Below are positions 11,322 through 18,158 of a stretch of 42,337 bases of DNA, piece after piece. Positions within the stretch are counted from its first letter, which is position 1, and every line of letters begins with the position of its first letter. Under the pieces are notes generated by a model. That model saw only the letters and a program-made list of their open reading frames with translations, had not been told where the DNA came from and ran no database searches. Made by a program: the position numbers and the translations under genes. This stretch comes from Desulfuromonadales bacterium (GTDB lineage Bacteria > Desulfobacterota > Desulfuromonadia > Desulfuromonadales > Syntrophotaleaceae): positions 1-42,337 of the forward strand of contig PWVL01000009.1 of NCBI GenBank assembly GCA_003561875.1, given 5' to 3'.

Positions 11322-12587
11322 TCAGAAGGCGTATCCCAGGCTGACAGCCACCAGGTGAATCTGGTTTTTGTAGAGCCCGTTGGCGATGTCACCGTATTCG
11401 TTGGTTGTTTTGCGACGGTTTTCCTGCAACTGAAAGCCGTAAGCCAGATCGAGGCTGAACCGATCGAAAGTTATTGCGCTGCCCACCGTGAACAGGTGGG
11501 TATCCGAATCCGGAATGGCCGGTTCAAAAGTGCTGTCGGGCACCGGGTTTTCACCGTAGAGATAGCCGGCCATCAGGGCCATACGCTCGTTCAGGTAATA
11601 CTTGGTGCCCACGTTGAAAGCCCAGGTGTTTTTCCAGTTTCGCGGAGCGATGATGGAATCGCTGCCCGCAACCGGCTGCGCCAGATCGATTTTGAGTTGC
11701 TTAAAGGATGACCATTCTTCCCAGCGGGCTCCCGCCTCGACGACCCAGGCCGGTGAAATTCGGTACGCCAGGGCTGCGGTCAATTGCGCGGGTAGGGTAA
11801 GGGAGGTTTTGCCTTTTGTGTCGGGGAATAAGGGGCTCAGGACTTCTAGTTCCGTGGGTATATCAAATCGGGCTTTGCCATCGACGTTAATTTTCACTTC
11901 ACTGCGGTAGGCTGCACCGAAAGACAGGGCTTCTGTAATCTGCAGTTGCAGGCCGAGGTTGAAGCCGAGGCCTTCACCGTCTCCGCTGAAGGATTGACCT
12001 ATGGTAGGCAGATTTAGTATAGGGGTGATCTCGTTCTTCAACTTGGCGTCGAGCAGAATGATGTTGAGACCAGCTCCCAGGGCCAGCCGGGGAGTCGCCT
12101 GAAAAGCCACCACCGGGTTGATGTTGAAAGTGGTAATGCGCGATTTGGTGGCCAAAACATTGCCCTCCCAGCCGCTGTCCCAGATCGTGCCGAGGCCAAA
12201 GGGATTGAACACGGCCAGGCCGGCACTCCACTGATCGTTGAACTGGTGGGTCAGGTAAAAGGTGCTGGGGAAGTAGGCCGTATCTTCATTTCTTTCGGTG
12301 GTACCATCCAGGTCACTCTTGAACTTGCGGACAGGGACCACGGCGGTGGTGCCGATCTCAAGCCGGGTCCCGCTCAGAGAAGGCAGCAGGGCCGGGTTGA
12401 AATAAGCCGCCGAAGGTCCGTCACTCTGGGCTACGGTGGCATTGGCGCGCCCCAGGGCGTCGGCTCCCTGAGTAAAAATCCCGAACCCGGCGGAATGACC
12501 CTGGGAGGCAGTCAAAACAAGCACAAAACTCAACAGCAAGCCGCAACACCGCCTCAAAAGGGCAATCCTTCCGGTTTTTTTCATCAT
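11322..12587 (-). CDS. OmpP1/FadL-family outer membrane transporter
   Basis: MMKKTGRIALL... signal peptide; AGFGIFTQGADALGRANATVAQSDGPSAAYFNPALLPSLSGTRLEIGTT; C-terminal Phe (LGYAF). GGAGG before ATG 12587. Confidence 0.88.
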   Translation of the reverse strand: MMKKTGRIALLRRCCGLLLSFVLVLTASQGHSAGFGIFTQGADALGRANATVAQSDGPSAAYFNPALLPSLSGTRLEIGTTAVVPVRKFKSDLDGTTERNEDTAYFPSTFYLTHQFNDQWSAGLAVFNPFGLGTIWDSGWEGNVLATKSRITTFNINPVVAFQATPRLALGAGLNIILLDAKLKNEITPILNLPTIGQSFSGDGEGLGFNLGLQLQITEALSFGAAYRSEVKINVDGKARFDIPTELEVLSPLFPDTKGKTSLTLPAQLTAALAYRISPAWVVEAGARWEEWSSFKQLKIDLAQPVAGSDSIIAPRNWKNTWAFNVGTKYYLNERMALMAGYLYGENPVPDSTFEPAIPDSDTHLFTVGSAITFDRFSLDLAYGFQLQENRRKTTNEYGDIANGLYKNQIHLVAVSLGYAF

Positions 12588-12835
12588 GCCTCCTGCCACG
12601 CCTTTTTTCCCGCTGGCGGTTGAAAGTTTGCCGATGGAATAAAATATCCTCGTATCATTAAGCCGGCCCGGAAGACAAGTCAACCAAAACACTGTTAGAC
12701 AGAATCAAAAAGTTACTATTAATCTCAGGATAAAGTGTTGAACTGAAATTGGAACTGGATTATTTTGTGGCATCGGTCCGGCAACCTTGGATCTCAATTG
12801 GCGGAACATAAAGAGCAGGTATTGGCGAGAAAATT

Positions 12836-13648
12836 ATGACGGTACGCAGTAACTACATCATGGAACATGCGGATGAGGCTTTGCGCCTTGATCTGAAAAC
12901 CGATCCTGAAGCGCTTGAGCGGCAGGCTCGGTGGGCGGGATTGATACCGGGAATGCGGGTTGCGGATGTAGGCTGCGGCAGCGGCAAGACTACCTTTTTG
13001 TTAAACGCGCTGTGCCAGCCAGGTGGGGAGGCCCTGGGGATTGATGGTTCGCCGGGGCGCATCGCCCACGCCCGGTCAAGCTACCGCATGCAAGGGCTTT
13101 CCTACCAATGCCGTGACTTTTACCAGCCCCTGGAAGATTTGGGCAAGTTTGATTTTATCTGGGTGCGCTTTGTCCTCGAGTACCATCGAGAAAAGGCTTT
13201 TCAGATCGTACAGAATCTCCAACGGCTTCTGAACCCGGGAGGGGTGCTGTGCCTGATCGATCTTGACTATAACTGCCTGAGTCATGCCGGAATCCCTCAG
13301 CGGCTGGAAAATGCCATTGTCGGTATTACCCGCAAACTCGAATTGGAGGCCGACTTTGATCCCTACATGGGCAGGAAACTCTATACCTATCTGTATGATT
13401 TGGGTTTTGTCGATATTCAGGTGGATCTTTCGGCCCACCACCTGATCAGTGGTGAGCTTAACGAAGTGGATTCCTACAATTGGAACCAGAAAGTACAGGT
13501 GGCAGCCAGAAACTCCAACTACGCCTTTTCCGAGTATCCCGACGGATTCCGTGGTTTCGTCAAAGAGTTCGAGACTTTTTTTTCCAATCCAAGACGCTTC
13601 ACCTACACGCCCCTGATTTGTGCAAGGGGCATCAAACCGGTTGTTTGA
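12836..13648 (+). CDS. Class I SAM-dependent methyltransferase
   Basis: VADVGCGSGKTTFLLNAL (motif I), FDFIWVRFVLEYH, LNPGGVLCLIDLDYN. Confidence 0.85.
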   Translation: MTVRSNYIMEHADEALRLDLKTDPEALERQARWAGLIPGMRVADVGCGSGKTTFLLNALCQPGGEALGIDGSPGRIAHARSSYRMQGLSYQCRDFYQPLEDLGKFDFIWVRFVLEYHREKAFQIVQNLQRLLNPGGVLCLIDLDYNCLSHAGIPQRLENAIVGITRKLELEADFDPYMGRKLYTYLYDLGFVDIQVDLSAHHLISGELNEVDSYNWNQKVQVAARNSNYAFSEYPDGFRGFVKEFETFFSNPRRFTYTPLICARGIKPVV

Positions 13649-13737: not shown

Positions 13738-16074
13738 TCAGCCAGGCTGATCTTCCATCGGCGCCAGGTGGCTTTCGGAAACGTAACCGAAAACCGCGTC
13801 AAGCCCCCTCTTGTTCAGATTAAGGAATTCAACGCCGAACCCTGCTGGCATTTCCCCTTTTAGCGGCTTGTTTTTACCGTTGACCCAGGCGACCCGGCCA
13901 CTGGCTTCATAGATTTCCGGTACGGACGACGGAATGGCGAAGGAAAGCTCGATGGTTTCTCCCTCGTTGACGGTTCTGTCCGTGGCGATGAAAATGCCCC
14001 GGACGCTGATGTCGGCGCTGGTGCCTGTCATGGGGTGCCCGTCAACCGTGTAGAAGACGGAAGTTTGGTAGGGGACCCTTTGGCTCTTTCGTTCCGGAAC
14101 TTTGTGGACCGAACCCAGGGAATACTTTTTTTCATAGTAGCGGATCAGCGCCTCAATGATGTCGTTGTCGAAGTGGATCCCGCTTTCCTCCCGCAAAATC
14201 TGGAAGGCTACGGAAAGGGGCATCGGCTCCCGATAATGCCTTTTGGCCGTAATGGCTTCAAAGAAATCGGCGACGGCAATGATCTTCGAACCCAGGTGAA
14301 TTTCATCCCCTTTGAGTCCGAGGGGATAGCCGGAGCCGTCCAACTTTTCGTGATGGCCGCCGGCCACTTCCGGAACACACTGATAGATGCCCTCAAAGTT
14401 GATCTGATCCAGAATTTCGCGTGTCTTTTCCGAGTGGGTTTTAACGATCTGATACTCCTCATGGGAGAGGCGCCCGGGTTTTTTCAGAATCGCGTCTGGA
14501 ACCGCAATTTTCCCATAGTCGTGAAGCAGGGCTGCGACGCGAATCATTTCACTGAAATCTTCCGACTGGCCCAGTTCGCGGCAGATGCCGACGGAATACT
14601 CGGTGACCTTTTCCGAATGACCGGCGGTCATGGGATCGCGGGCGTCGATGGATGTTGCCAGAACCATCAGCAGGGAGTGAAACTGTTTGCGGCGGCCATT
14701 CATCAGATCCGCGTTGTGGATACTGATGCCGATGACCGGCGCAATGCCCATTAAAAGAGTCAGGTCGCTGTGGATCAGGGGGCGTTTACTGCGCGTGTTG
14801 TCCACGGCCAGAATGCCGATCGCCTCCCCGTCGCAGATGATCGGACAGCAGATGAAAGAATGAACACCAAGAGCTTCGGCCAGCGCCCGACTGCGAGGGC
14901 TGAGAGAATCTTCAAGTTCGCTGAGGTCGTTGATAAGAAAGGGCTCGTGCTGGTGAAATGAGACGACAAACGCACCCTTGGAATCCGGATTGTCCAGATG
15001 GAAAGATGTTCCTCTGAGCAGGTCCTGGTGTTGTTCCGAATAACCGTAACCGGCCCTGAAAACCAGTCTGGTTCTTTCGCGATTGGCCAAAAGAATCATT
15101 CCTCGATCGTAGTCCAGTCGTTTGTTCAGAATAAAAATGACTTCTTTCAGGATTTCATCAATGCTACCGGTTCCGCTGATGGACTGTTCCAGTTGTTTTA
15201 TATTGGCCTGGGTGCTGATAGCTTGGCCAATTTCGTTGGCCATCAGCGCATTGTTATAATTTCGGTTGGTCTGCTCGATAAGCAGGTCAGTTGAATCCCT
15301 GATATTTGAGACGTTTTTTAAAATTTCCTTTTTTTCAAACATCTCAATCAGCAGAGAAACAATCAGAATGGAGGAAAAAAAAGAAGCAAAACCAATCAGG
15401 AGGGCATTTGTAGAGAGTTTCATCCACGGGAAAAAAAACACCGGCAGGCAAAGTACGGACAAAAAGACCCTTAGTTTTCTCAAAGTTACGCTGGCGCTTT
15501 TTTCCCAACTGACAATATAGGTGCAATGAGCGTCCCCCCTGAACAAACACTGGGGGTGCTCAATTTGGGGAGACTTGTAACCCATCATGGTCACAACGGC
15601 TTCCCAGAAACCCAGCCTGTTTTGGCACTGGAATATCTTTTCATTGACTCCTTCGTGCGGTGTCACCGTTATTTGAACTTTATTTTCACCCAGAGATTCC
15701 GATCTATAACTTGCCGAGCGGGTGAAATTTGAAGAACCCTGGCCGATCAGTTTAAAGGTGTTGGCCGGGCCGACCAGTCCCAGTACATACTGACGCATAA
15801 TGCCCAGAGCATCCGGTGAAGCGGAATAGCGGCCGGCTTCTCGTGCCATACCGTCGTCGCCGGTAACTTCAACAACTCTTTCATAAAAACGATCGATCTG
15901 GTCTTGGGTGAACCAGTGCGCCTGGTCTGCAACCTGATACAACCTCATGCCAGCGTAGTCCAGTACTTCGCTGATGCCAACCTCTGGATATTTTTTCTTG
16001 ATAATTTTTATATAATTATCAATAAGTCTGCTGTTATACAGAGGCTTAGAATTTATGTCTTTGTCGTCATTCAT
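13738..16074 (-). CDS. Multidomain c-di-GMP protein: V4R-like N-terminus, 2 TM, GAF, HD-GYP, PilZ
   Basis: N-terminal ...HPQCLFRGDAHCTYIVSWE (V4R-like); two hydrophobic segments; GAF (HSFICCPIICDGEAIGILAVDN); HD-GYP (AALLHDYGKIAVPDAIL...GGHHEKLDGSGYPLGLKG); PilZ (RKSQR...ADISVRGIF). Confidence 0.85.
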   Translation of the reverse strand: MNDDKDINSKPLYNSRLIDNYIKIIKKKYPEVGISEVLDYAGMRLYQVADQAHWFTQDQIDRFYERVVEVTGDDGMAREAGRYSASPDALGIMRQYVLGLVGPANTFKLIGQGSSNFTRSASYRSESLGENKVQITVTPHEGVNEKIFQCQNRLGFWEAVVTMMGYKSPQIEHPQCLFRGDAHCTYIVSWEKSASVTLRKLRVFLSVLCLPVFFFPWMKLSTNALLIGFASFFSSILIVSLLIEMFEKKEILKNVSNIRDSTDLLIEQTNRNYNNALMANEIGQAISTQANIKQLEQSISGTGSIDEILKEVIFILNKRLDYDRGMILLANRERTRLVFRAGYGYSEQHQDLLRGTSFHLDNPDSKGAFVVSFHQHEPFLINDLSELEDSLSPRSRALAEALGVHSFICCPIICDGEAIGILAVDNTRSKRPLIHSDLTLLMGIAPVIGISIHNADLMNGRRKQFHSLLMVLATSIDARDPMTAGHSEKVTEYSVGICRELGQSEDFSEMIRVAALLHDYGKIAVPDAILKKPGRLSHEEYQIVKTHSEKTREILDQINFEGIYQCVPEVAGGHHEKLDGSGYPLGLKGDEIHLGSKIIAVADFFEAITAKRHYREPMPLSVAFQILREESGIHFDNDIIEALIRYYEKKYSLGSVHKVPERKSQRVPYQTSVFYTVDGHPMTGTSADISVRGIFIATDRTVNEGETIELSFAIPSSVPEIYEASGRVAWVNGKNKPLKGEMPAGFGVEFLNLNKRGLDAVFGYVSESHLAPMEDQPG

Positions 16075-18158
16075 TCTTTACCCGAATGAGTATAAATTGA
16101 TTTATTTATATTTGGTACGAATTTATCACAAAATTCAAAATATTTATCAAGATATTGCATGTTAAGTATCCATAAATTATAAATTTTTTCAAATTCCAAT
16201 TGATTTTCTTCGCAAAATTTCTGTGGATAAAGAAGTACAGGGATTCCTTTGAGATTATATTTTATGCAAAGAATCGAAATTGCAGTTAATAAAATTTCTT
16301 TACTTACTTTTTTGTTGTCAACAACCATAACTTTAAAACTGTTTGTTAAATCAGACATGTTGAGATACTTGTCTGATATATTAACAATAACAATAACCTT
16401 TAGTTCATTATCTATTTTAATAGAATAAATATTCAGGTTTCTTTTCATCCCCAGTGAACGATATTCCAAAAAAAGTTCTGAATCGTTGTGATTTTTTGAA
16501 AGCAGATCCAGGGCGGAGACCATCAGGCCGCCTGATTCATAATCAAGAAATCTTTTAAGCTCATAAAGGTCATTCTGGCTTGCGAGGTTCATGCTCCAGG
16601 TTTGACTCACATGTAGTCCCGTTTTAAGGGGCCTGGAGAAATGGAAATATGCAAAACGGTCTATTGAGCATCCTTTCAGATCGTTGATGTATTTCTGGGT
16701 TCCGCCAAACACGCGGCTGGGAAACCGGTTTTCAGGGCGGAAGTAGCAAAACAGGTAGTCCAGGTGGGCGGAGTAAAGCTGGTGAACTTCGTTGGCGTAG
16801 CGGCTGATCTGGCTGAGTACCGAAAGTCCGCCTTTGCGGGTCTCGGTTTTTTGAGCGGCATGGTGCTGAACAAGCCAGGAGTTGTTGTAGAAGCGAATCA
16901 TCGACATATGGGCCAGAATGGCGCCGCTTTTCTGGTACACGAAATGCCGGGCGATGTTGGGCTTGCCTTCATAAAGCAGGCGATAGGTCTTTTTGAATTC
17001 CTGCTTGTTGGCTTTGAGGTGGAGGTATTTTTCAGGATAAATAAAGCCCGTGTCGAAAAAGAACTTCCAAAGCGCGTCAAGATCGACCTTGTTGCTTAAA
17101 TAGGAATGCTTATTGTTGGCCTGGTAGAGTAGGGCCAGGAGTCGGCCCTGTTCTTCCATTTTCATGTCCAGGAATGCAATGCCGCAACGGAAGGCGTGGA
17201 GTTCCGGGTCGTTCTCATCGGCCGAACGATAGACGACCTGAGCCTTGCAAAACAGGGTGTCGCTGTTGGCCAGGGTCAGAGAGAGTTCGGGCAGGATCAG
17301 CCCTGGCAGCAGCACCGCGTTGTGCGCCTCTTCATTGACCGATACCCCAGAACCGGAGATGTCCTCCACGTCCAGTTCCACCCACCGGTCGGTAAAGGGG
17401 TGGCGAAAACGGATGTTGGGTGACGGGCTCAGGCGTTGCCGTGCGCTTCGGTATTTGCGTTGTTTGTATTTAAAGAGGTGGTTGCTGGTCGGTATCAGAA
17501 CCACGGTTTTCTCATGCTGGTTGCCGGACTGCCGCAGGATGGTGCATTCCGCCGAGTAAACAATATCGCCCTTGCTGGACAGGATCAGGGTGGCCGGGGA
17601 ATCGGTGTTAAGCCACTGGAAGGTCTGTGGGGGCGGGGCGTTCAACGTAATGCGCATAGATACGCCGCTGAATTCAACCAGGCTGCCACTGAAACTGCCG
17701 CTGTTCTGTATCAGTTGGACCGCGACGTTCTTTGCCGAATGGCGTCGTGATTGGCGTGAATGCAGTTCCCTGGATTCCTGTGGCAGGACGAAGTGAAGGA
17801 ATTTTTCGTCAATTTGGACTGTCTCGGGTTCGATGACCAGGGTTTTTTCGCCATCGTGAATCAGCAAACGCTCAAAGCGGTGGGAGTTTCGTTCATTTTT
17901 TGAAAGCGGTTTGTTTGCCCAGGTACAGATCATTTCATGGGATGTGCAGGGTTGCGGCAGGATGGAGCGGGAAATTACGCTGCCATAGCGCAGGTGACGG
18001 AAGATGGCGGTAATGTGTCCGTCCAGAAAGTGAACATAATTGATTTTATTGATGAGGGTTTTCAGGTCGATGGTTTTGGCAGCCGGATTTGCGGGTGCAT
18101 GGCGGTCTTCCGGGGATGACTGCAGTCTTTCGCTAACCGTCCCGTGGCAGGTTTCCAT
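16071..18158 (-). CDS. PilZ-domain protein with large uncharacterised, possibly GNAT-like C-terminal region
   Basis: Central KQRKYRSARQRLS...VEDISGSGVSVNEE is PilZ-like. The C-terminal region (YRLLYEGKPNIARHFVYQKSGAILAHMSMIRFYNNSWLVQHHAA) has acetyltransferase-like texture. Stop overlaps the next start as ATGA. Confidence 0.65.
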   Translation of the reverse strand: METCHGTVSERLQSSPEDRHAPANPAAKTIDLKTLINKINYVHFLDGHITAIFRHLRYGSVISRSILPQPCTSHEMICTWANKPLSKNERNSHRFERLLIHDGEKTLVIEPETVQIDEKFLHFVLPQESRELHSRQSRRHSAKNVAVQLIQNSGSFSGSLVEFSGVSMRITLNAPPPQTFQWLNTDSPATLILSSKGDIVYSAECTILRQSGNQHEKTVVLIPTSNHLFKYKQRKYRSARQRLSPSPNIRFRHPFTDRWVELDVEDISGSGVSVNEEAHNAVLLPGLILPELSLTLANSDTLFCKAQVVYRSADENDPELHAFRCGIAFLDMKMEEQGRLLALLYQANNKHSYLSNKVDLDALWKFFFDTGFIYPEKYLHLKANKQEFKKTYRLLYEGKPNIARHFVYQKSGAILAHMSMIRFYNNSWLVQHHAAQKTETRKGGLSVLSQISRYANEVHQLYSAHLDYLFCYFRPENRFPSRVFGGTQKYINDLKGCSIDRFAYFHFSRPLKTGLHVSQTWSMNLASQNDLYELKRFLDYESGGLMVSALDLLSKNHNDSELFLEYRSLGMKRNLNIYSIKIDNELKVIVIVNISDKYLNMSDLTNSFKVMVVDNKKVSKEILLTAISILCIKYNLKGIPVLLYPQKFCEENQLEFEKIYNLWILNMQYLDKYFEFCDKFVPNINKSIYTHSGKE

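Follow-up and report, generated by a model that had tools for sequence, protein, structure and literature searches.

Two described proteins are the closest precedents for the genes analyzed here. PixB (MXAN_2604) of Myxococcus xanthus carries two PilZ domains and then a GNAT-family transferase in one chain, binds cyclic di-guanosine monophosphate (c-di-GMP), and has roles in motility and development (PMC8316039). HfsK of Caulobacter is a tandem-GNAT c-di-GMP effector that is thought to modify holdfast polysaccharide and that binds c-di-GMP with the help of a short C-terminal extension (PMC5362036). On the sensory side, the H-NOX/HnoK/HD-GYP pathways of Shewanella and Vibrio have kinase and c-di-GMP-enzyme outputs, and in the PhcB/PhcS system of Ralstonia a methyltransferase makes a hydrophobic signal, a fatty-acid methyl ester, that is sensed by a histidine kinase (PMC8578825). 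We analyzed a gene pair in a 42,337-nucleotide stretch of contig PWVL01000009.1 (assembly GCA_003561875.1; hereafter, the window) from a Desulfuromonadales bacterium of the family Syntrophotaleaceae. The first gene encodes P2, with PilZ-type barrels followed by a predicted tandem GNAT transferase; the second encodes P1, with a predicted ligand-binding sensor domain, a membrane hairpin, and GAF, HD-GYP and PilZ domains. Together with an S-adenosylmethionine (SAM)-dependent methyltransferase (MT) and, in some lineages, an outer-membrane protein of the FadL family, P2 and the P1 sensor constitute a conserved cassette with the gene pair as its core. We tentatively propose, at a little less than an even chance, that c-di-GMP-controlled P2 and the MT make or modify a small hydrophobic molecule that P1 senses.

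The evidence for the cassette comes from a survey of 395 genomes of the phylum, in which 48 loci were examined, 42 chosen by P2 alone and six fetched through P1. Of the 42 P2-selected loci, 35 have a P1-type sensor next to P2. Among all 48, it is directly downstream of P2 on the same strand in 38 and within about 6 kb in 41; three loci have it in another order or orientation, and in seven, some of them cut by contig ends, it is not in the fetched stretch. P2 was found in 45 genomes, the sensor in 48, and the MT in 37, with P2 and sensor together in 39, P2 and MT in 35, and sensor and MT in 36, where 4–6 would be expected (Fisher values of about 1e-38, which are descriptive, as kinship is ignored and the profiles were derived from the same loci). 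P2 is spread over 32 of 246 genera, a version with 90% identity is present in a Desulfuromonadaceae metagenome-assembled genome (MAG; L002), and no relatives were found among the viral contigs and plasmids searched. Given that the pair is kept across dozens of genera, pairing by chance is excluded. The first-pass annotation of this DNA had taken the genes for partners; they are indeed a true conserved pair, usually adjacent rather than rarely so.

Its description of a two-gene module did not hold, having overlooked both the MT and the FadL gene. When all neighbors were clustered, the MT family was nearly as frequent as the sensor, and a profile search detected it in 36 of the 48 loci (30 of the 42 P2-selected). 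Depending on the lineage, the MT either is the convergent neighbor of P1 or comes directly upstream of P2; the association thus survives rearrangement. At a cut-off of 1e-45, the MT profile matched 37 of the 395 genomes once each, always more strongly than 1e-85; P2 is also present in 35 of these genomes, and the sensor in 36. In the two that gave no P2 match (G250 and G251), the sensor or the MT lies at the end of a contig. The MT is also kept by very distant P2 homologs (L094 and L106), where a V4R histidine kinase is present. At L094 (4876–17128), the row comprises a sigma-54 regulator, a multi-PilZ GNAT-like protein, two B12-type radical-SAM genes, an epimerase, the MT, and the V4R-type kinase, with all from the PilZ-GNAT gene to the kinase within 11 kb. 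At L107, a stand-alone tandem-GNAT homolog of P2 (331 aa, no PilZ) lies a few bases from the MT. FadL is associated in about 15 loci, including the rearranged L080/L082, and at L116 (6660–10076) a P2-free P1-type sensor directly adjoins a FadL homolog of the same family.

Several loci depart from the usual layout. Family relatives (L099, L100–L103) have two P1-type sensors flanking P2 in the order P1b-P2-P1a, and one genome (G398, L105) keeps P1b with no P2 within the fetched 18 kb. In two genomes of one genus (G347 and G130; L072 and L110), P1 adjoins FabF-like, FabG-like, AMP-ligase, FAD-oxidoreductase and B12 radical-SAM genes, a set resembling an aryl-polyene or lipid biosynthesis cluster; P1 is accompanied by P2 at L072 and stands without it at L110. 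A P2-P1-MT cassette also occurs on a contig labeled as a Campylobacterota MAG (L003, 645–5505), meaning that either the entire cassette has moved from one phylum to another or the contig was binned wrongly.

The output attached to the sensor varies among HD-GYP, HD-GYP-PilZ, PAS-HD-GYP, PAS-histidine kinase-receiver (with or without Hpt), and guanylate/adenylate cyclase. Because the sensor stays while the output changes, the constant link is that of transferase to sensor, not to c-di-GMP hydrolysis. The earlier label of a c-di-GMP module is accordingly too narrow, real as the c-di-GMP domains of the window proteins are. One sensor (L119, 2997–8909) reaches 1970 aa, with a P1-type N-terminus, many PAS domains, kinase, receiver and Hpt.

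A single Pfam PilZ match was found in P2 (residues 242–346, 2.6e-10), carrying the D266ISGSG motif that had been noticed at first reading, while residues 350–690 had no match in Pfam, NCBIfam or PDB sequence searches, in line with the roughly 350 residues then called uncharacterized. Sequence/profile matches in PDB to photosystem proteins (E of about 2) were attributed to chance. We modeled P2 with AlphaFold from an alignment of five sequences (mean pLDDT 65). The model has three beta-barrels, one of them an additional PilZ-like barrel with R135QSRR that the first reading had missed, and then two successive alpha/beta GNAT patterns. Foldseek matched it in PDB to MrkH, YcgR, MotI and PlzA (E 1e-10 to 1e-8) and, on the GNAT side, to tandem GNAT enzymes, N-myristoyltransferase and glucosamine N-acetyltransferase (VipF, TMt 0.52; glucosamine acetyltransferase 5kf1, 3e-8), the matches being allotted to the two halves by alignment length and fold type. 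Whereas YcgR, MrkH, MotI and PlzA stop after PilZ, P2 runs on into tandem GNAT. The C-terminus is therefore predicted, at moderate model confidence, to have an enzymatic fold, in agreement at fold level with an earlier guess at an acyl- or acetyltransferase; among 43 homologs, one matches Pfam Acetyltransf_1 (3e-4).

Conservation within P2 points to candidate functional residues. In barrel B, R135 is present in 43 of 43 homologs and R139 in 42. RxxxR and D/NxSxxG never occur in one barrel: B has only the former and C only DxSxxG. The acyl-CoA loop of GNAT1 ([RQ]xxGx[GA] consensus) is largely kept as [KR]441xxG444 with a variable final position, and is absent in L094/L106. H432 and, in GNAT2, S602 and L604 are kept even in 20%-identical homologs, and R474 and N600 in most; these are candidate active-site or structural residues. 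Mean identity is 53% for the MT and 47% for GNAT1, the highest within P2, and falls to 25–28% in barrels A and B. This peak in the MT and GNAT1 fits catalysis as the point of the cassette. One homolog (L062, 3172–6111) has about 270 additional N-terminal residues with no Pfam match in them, which could be a fusion or a start called too early.

These features place P2 near PixB and HfsK without equating it with either. Like PixB, P2 has PilZ domains ahead of a GNAT-family transferase, and RxxxR with a degenerate second motif. PixB, taken from its published description, has RxxxR in both PilZ domains (R121 and R331, about 210 residues apart), whereas P2 has it in barrel B only, its PilZ spacing is about 100 residues, and tandem GNAT follows. 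The PixB pattern of two PilZ domains, each with RxxxR, before a GNAT is thus not that of P2, and the layout of L094/L106 is nearer to PixB than that of the window protein. HfsK shares the tandem GNAT under c-di-GMP control and has no P2-type PilZ. No sensor/MT cassette has been described for PixB and no linked sensor for HfsK. Both precedents, together with the predicted PilZ-GNAT fold, nevertheless suggest an alternative in which P2 is an effector of the same kind, a c-di-GMP-controlled GNAT whose target for modification is a protein, a polysaccharide or an envelope component, with P1 providing local c-di-GMP turnover and the MT acting on the same target. We consider this possible but rather unlikely: the conserved partner of P2 is the sensor domain, with histidine kinase and cyclase outputs substituting for HD-GYP, and neighbor clustering did not reveal polysaccharide or pilus genes recurring beside P2. 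The role of passive effector first assigned to P2 is one option only, and the comparative data favor an enzyme paired with a sensor.

For the P1 sensor domain modeled alone (pLDDT 76), the 42 best Foldseek matches were all H-NOX or soluble guanylate cyclase proteins, mostly at TM 0.5–0.67 (strongest, 0.64–0.67); PoxR, MopR and a TRAPPC3 subunit carrying palmitate ranked next. Pfam V4R (PF02830) matches 17 of 39 sensor homologs (best 5e-7), while the window P1 is below the cut-off; in a V4R scan of its own genome, a single other gene matched and P1 did not. Homologs thereby support the V4R-like assignment of the first-pass annotation, whose GAF, HD-GYP and PilZ calls for P1 were confirmed by Pfam and motifs. 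The proximal heme histidine is absolutely conserved among H-NOX proteins (PMC7108781), and the sensor alignment has no conserved His at residues 65–139. Heme sensing, suggested by the fold, was thus rejected, and we read the domain as a heme-less member of the H-NOX/V4R ligand-binding fold, probably cytoplasmic judging by the charges flanking the transmembrane (TM) hairpin. Ligands within this fold class include heme (H-NOX), phenols (PoxR/MopR) and palmitate (TRAPPC3). Weak matches to Arabinose_bd (PF12625) in 26 of 39 sensors were taken as the helical half of the fold rather than as sugar binding.

The sensors share a predicted Cys3His site, in which the three Cys (C150, C176 and C184 in P1) are invariant in 39 of 39 and the His (H173) is present in 37. 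Its spacing (26, -3, 8) equals that of the zinc site of Shewanella oneidensis H-NOX (C139/H161/C164/C172; 25, -3, 8) within one residue (PMC7108781), and its residues agree with the zinc-site subgroup of H-NOX proteins, in which three Cys are joined by His or Gln. With H-NOX as the best structural match and Cys oxidation known to activate V. cholerae H-NOX and another H-NOX (PMC7108781, PMC12329717), P1 might instead be a heme-independent redox or metal sensor acting through a zinc site, with P2 and the MT as co-regulated output enzymes rather than the source of a ligand. This explanation seems improbable to us. It leaves the tight linkage to transferase, MT or FadL unexplained, and the identical Cys spacing of 26/8 in the phenol sensor DmpR (C151/C177/C185) is structural (PMC7264223, PMC10715001). 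PoxR and MopR also match the P1 fold, although DmpR/MopR/PoxR differ in their outputs, the structural score is below that of H-NOX, and the phenol-anchoring His/Trp of V4R phenol sensors were not seen in P1 at the equivalent ungapped spacing. P1 resembles the H-NOX pathways in predicted sensor fold, Cys/His spacing and outputs, and differs from them in having no proximal heme His and in that a single chain combines the sensor with the membrane hairpin, GAF and output; those pathways, moreover, do not have the transferase and MT partners of the cassette.

A transferase, an MT, a channel for hydrophobic compounds, and a sensor that has exchangeable outputs and a fold of the hydrophobic-ligand type are the anatomy expected of a molecule that is made and sensed. 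In the circuit that we propose, P2, tuned to c-di-GMP through its PilZ barrels, and the MT would synthesize or complete a small molecule that is acylated and/or methylated and probably hydrophobic. This molecule may cross the outer membrane via FadL and would be bound in the cytoplasmic sensor pocket of P1, changing its output. In the window organism, the HD-GYP domain would lower c-di-GMP under PilZ control, and the PilZ domains of P1 and P2 would complete a loop of feedback; among relatives, the output would be a phosphorelay or another cyclic nucleotide. PhcB/PhcS is similar by analogy of function only, as an MT signal synthase with a sensor, and has neither PilZ-GNAT nor H-NOX/V4R sensor.

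Several points weigh against this proposal. P1 and P2 occur without the MT in L064, L072 and L074, and only certain lineages have FadL. The P2 model, built from so few sequences, is of low confidence; binding of c-di-GMP by P2 is no more than likely because each barrel is without the full motif pair; and the donor need not be acyl-CoA, given the partial conservation of the GNAT1 loop and its absence in L094/L106. The activities of P2 and the MT, their substrate and product, the P1 ligand and its identity with that product, and the direction in which c-di-GMP acts are steps that we infer, and the enzymes and the sensor could act on different molecules.

Linkage of this kind might also mean that P2 and P1 form a complex, P2 binding to its partner to acylate it, for example, or to serve as a PilZ switch, with GNAT folds that are partly non-catalytic. 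An ATGA overlap (as the first reading noted for the window genes) or a short gap joins P2 and P1 in many lineages, and P2 and sensor divergence are correlated (r 0.81), but shared ancestry would also give correlated divergence. P2 and P1 are both kept yet unlinked in four genomes (G032, G333, G083 and G047) and are convergent in L064, and no part of P2 is better conserved than GNAT1. We therefore regard a complex as very improbable, and keep to the tentative proposal of a molecule made by P2 and the MT and sensed by P1.

The features of the locus are listed in the table. All HD-GYP motifs of P1 are kept (H486, HD518, HHEKLDGSGYP at 574–584 and ADFFEA at 602), and with HD and HHExxDGxGYP present the domain is a predicted c-di-GMP phosphodiesterase. 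The C-terminal PilZ has both RxxxR (R662KSQR) and D/NxSxxG (D688ISVRG). The suggestion that ligand sensing and c-di-GMP feedback are fused in P1 is plausible as to PilZ feedback on HD-GYP. Matches of P1 to a "GPMC system regulator" or NosR were rejected, as they cover only the GAF and HD-GYP parts. At the gene junction, the 3' end of P2 (16074–16460) has a GC content of 25% and the start of P1 32%, against 47–56% in neighboring genes, possibly through recombination or relaxed sequence.

Table. Features of the P2-P1 locus and its conserved neighbors (coordinates in the window; residues of the encoded protein).
Feature	Position	Strand	Basis
P2: YcgR/MrkH-like PilZ barrels and predicted tandem GNAT transferase, 695 aa	16071..18158	-	Pfam, predicted structure, Foldseek
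P2 barrel A, residues ~45-125, YcgR-N-like position	17784..18026	-	Model secondary structure; MrkH/YcgR matches
P2 barrel B, residues ~135-225, degenerate PilZ with R135xxxR139, without DxSxxG	17484..17756	-	Model, alignment
P2 barrel C, residues ~237-346, Pfam PilZ with D266xSxxG271; R237xxR240 replaces RxxxR	17121..17450	-	Pfam, alignment
P2 predicted GNAT1, residues ~360-507	16638..17081	-	Model, Foldseek, conservation
P2 predicted GNAT2, residues ~521-666, signature N600xSxLxN606	16161..16598	-	Model, alignment
ATGA stop/start overlap of P2 and P1	16071..16074	-	Sequence
P1: predicted H-NOX/V4R-fold sensor, 2 TM, GAF, HD-GYP, PilZ, 778 aa	13738..16074	-	Pfam, predicted structure
P1 sensor domain, residues 1-195, predicted H-NOX/V4R fold without heme histidine	15490..16074	-	Model, Foldseek, alignment
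P1 putative zinc/thiol site C150, H173, C176, C184	15523..15627	-	Alignment; spacing as in PMC7108781, PMC7264223
P1 two-TM hairpin, residues ~205-246	15337..15462	-	Hydrophobic stretches read in translation
P1 GAF, residues 305-452	14719..15162	-	Pfam, 5e-14
P1 HD-GYP, residues 472-638, motifs intact	14161..14661	-	Pfam HD_5, 5.7e-42; motif reading
P1 PilZ, residues 662-761, both c-di-GMP motifs complete	13792..14091	-	Pfam, 7.4e-13; motif reading
MT: class I SAM methyltransferase, third conserved gene of the cassette	12836..13648	+	Neighbor clustering; Methyltransf_11, 6e-15
FadL/OMPP1/TodX outer-membrane protein, associated in ~15 loci	11322..12692	-	Neighbor clustering, profile

The system is known in part, through PixB and HfsK for P2 and through H-NOX and V4R proteins for the P1 sensor. 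We found no description of the cassette, or of the combination with the MT, in open-licence literature; the earlier statement that no named system with this pair is known agrees with this, PixB being a close single-protein precedent. The cassette may represent a signaling class in which a c-di-GMP-gated tandem GNAT and an MT make a hydrophobic messenger for a heme-less H-NOX/V4R receptor with interchangeable outputs, a generalization we hold to be doubtful for now. Few enzymatically active c-di-GMP effectors have been described, and the linkage reported here offers two handles on the substrate of PixB-type PilZ-GNAT proteins: an MT that is probably part of the pathway and a sensor by which the product is probably detected. 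If the proposal is true, the cassette would be a new and so far unrecognized chemical signaling circuit, joining a small-molecule signal to c-di-GMP in about thirty sampled genera of one phylum.

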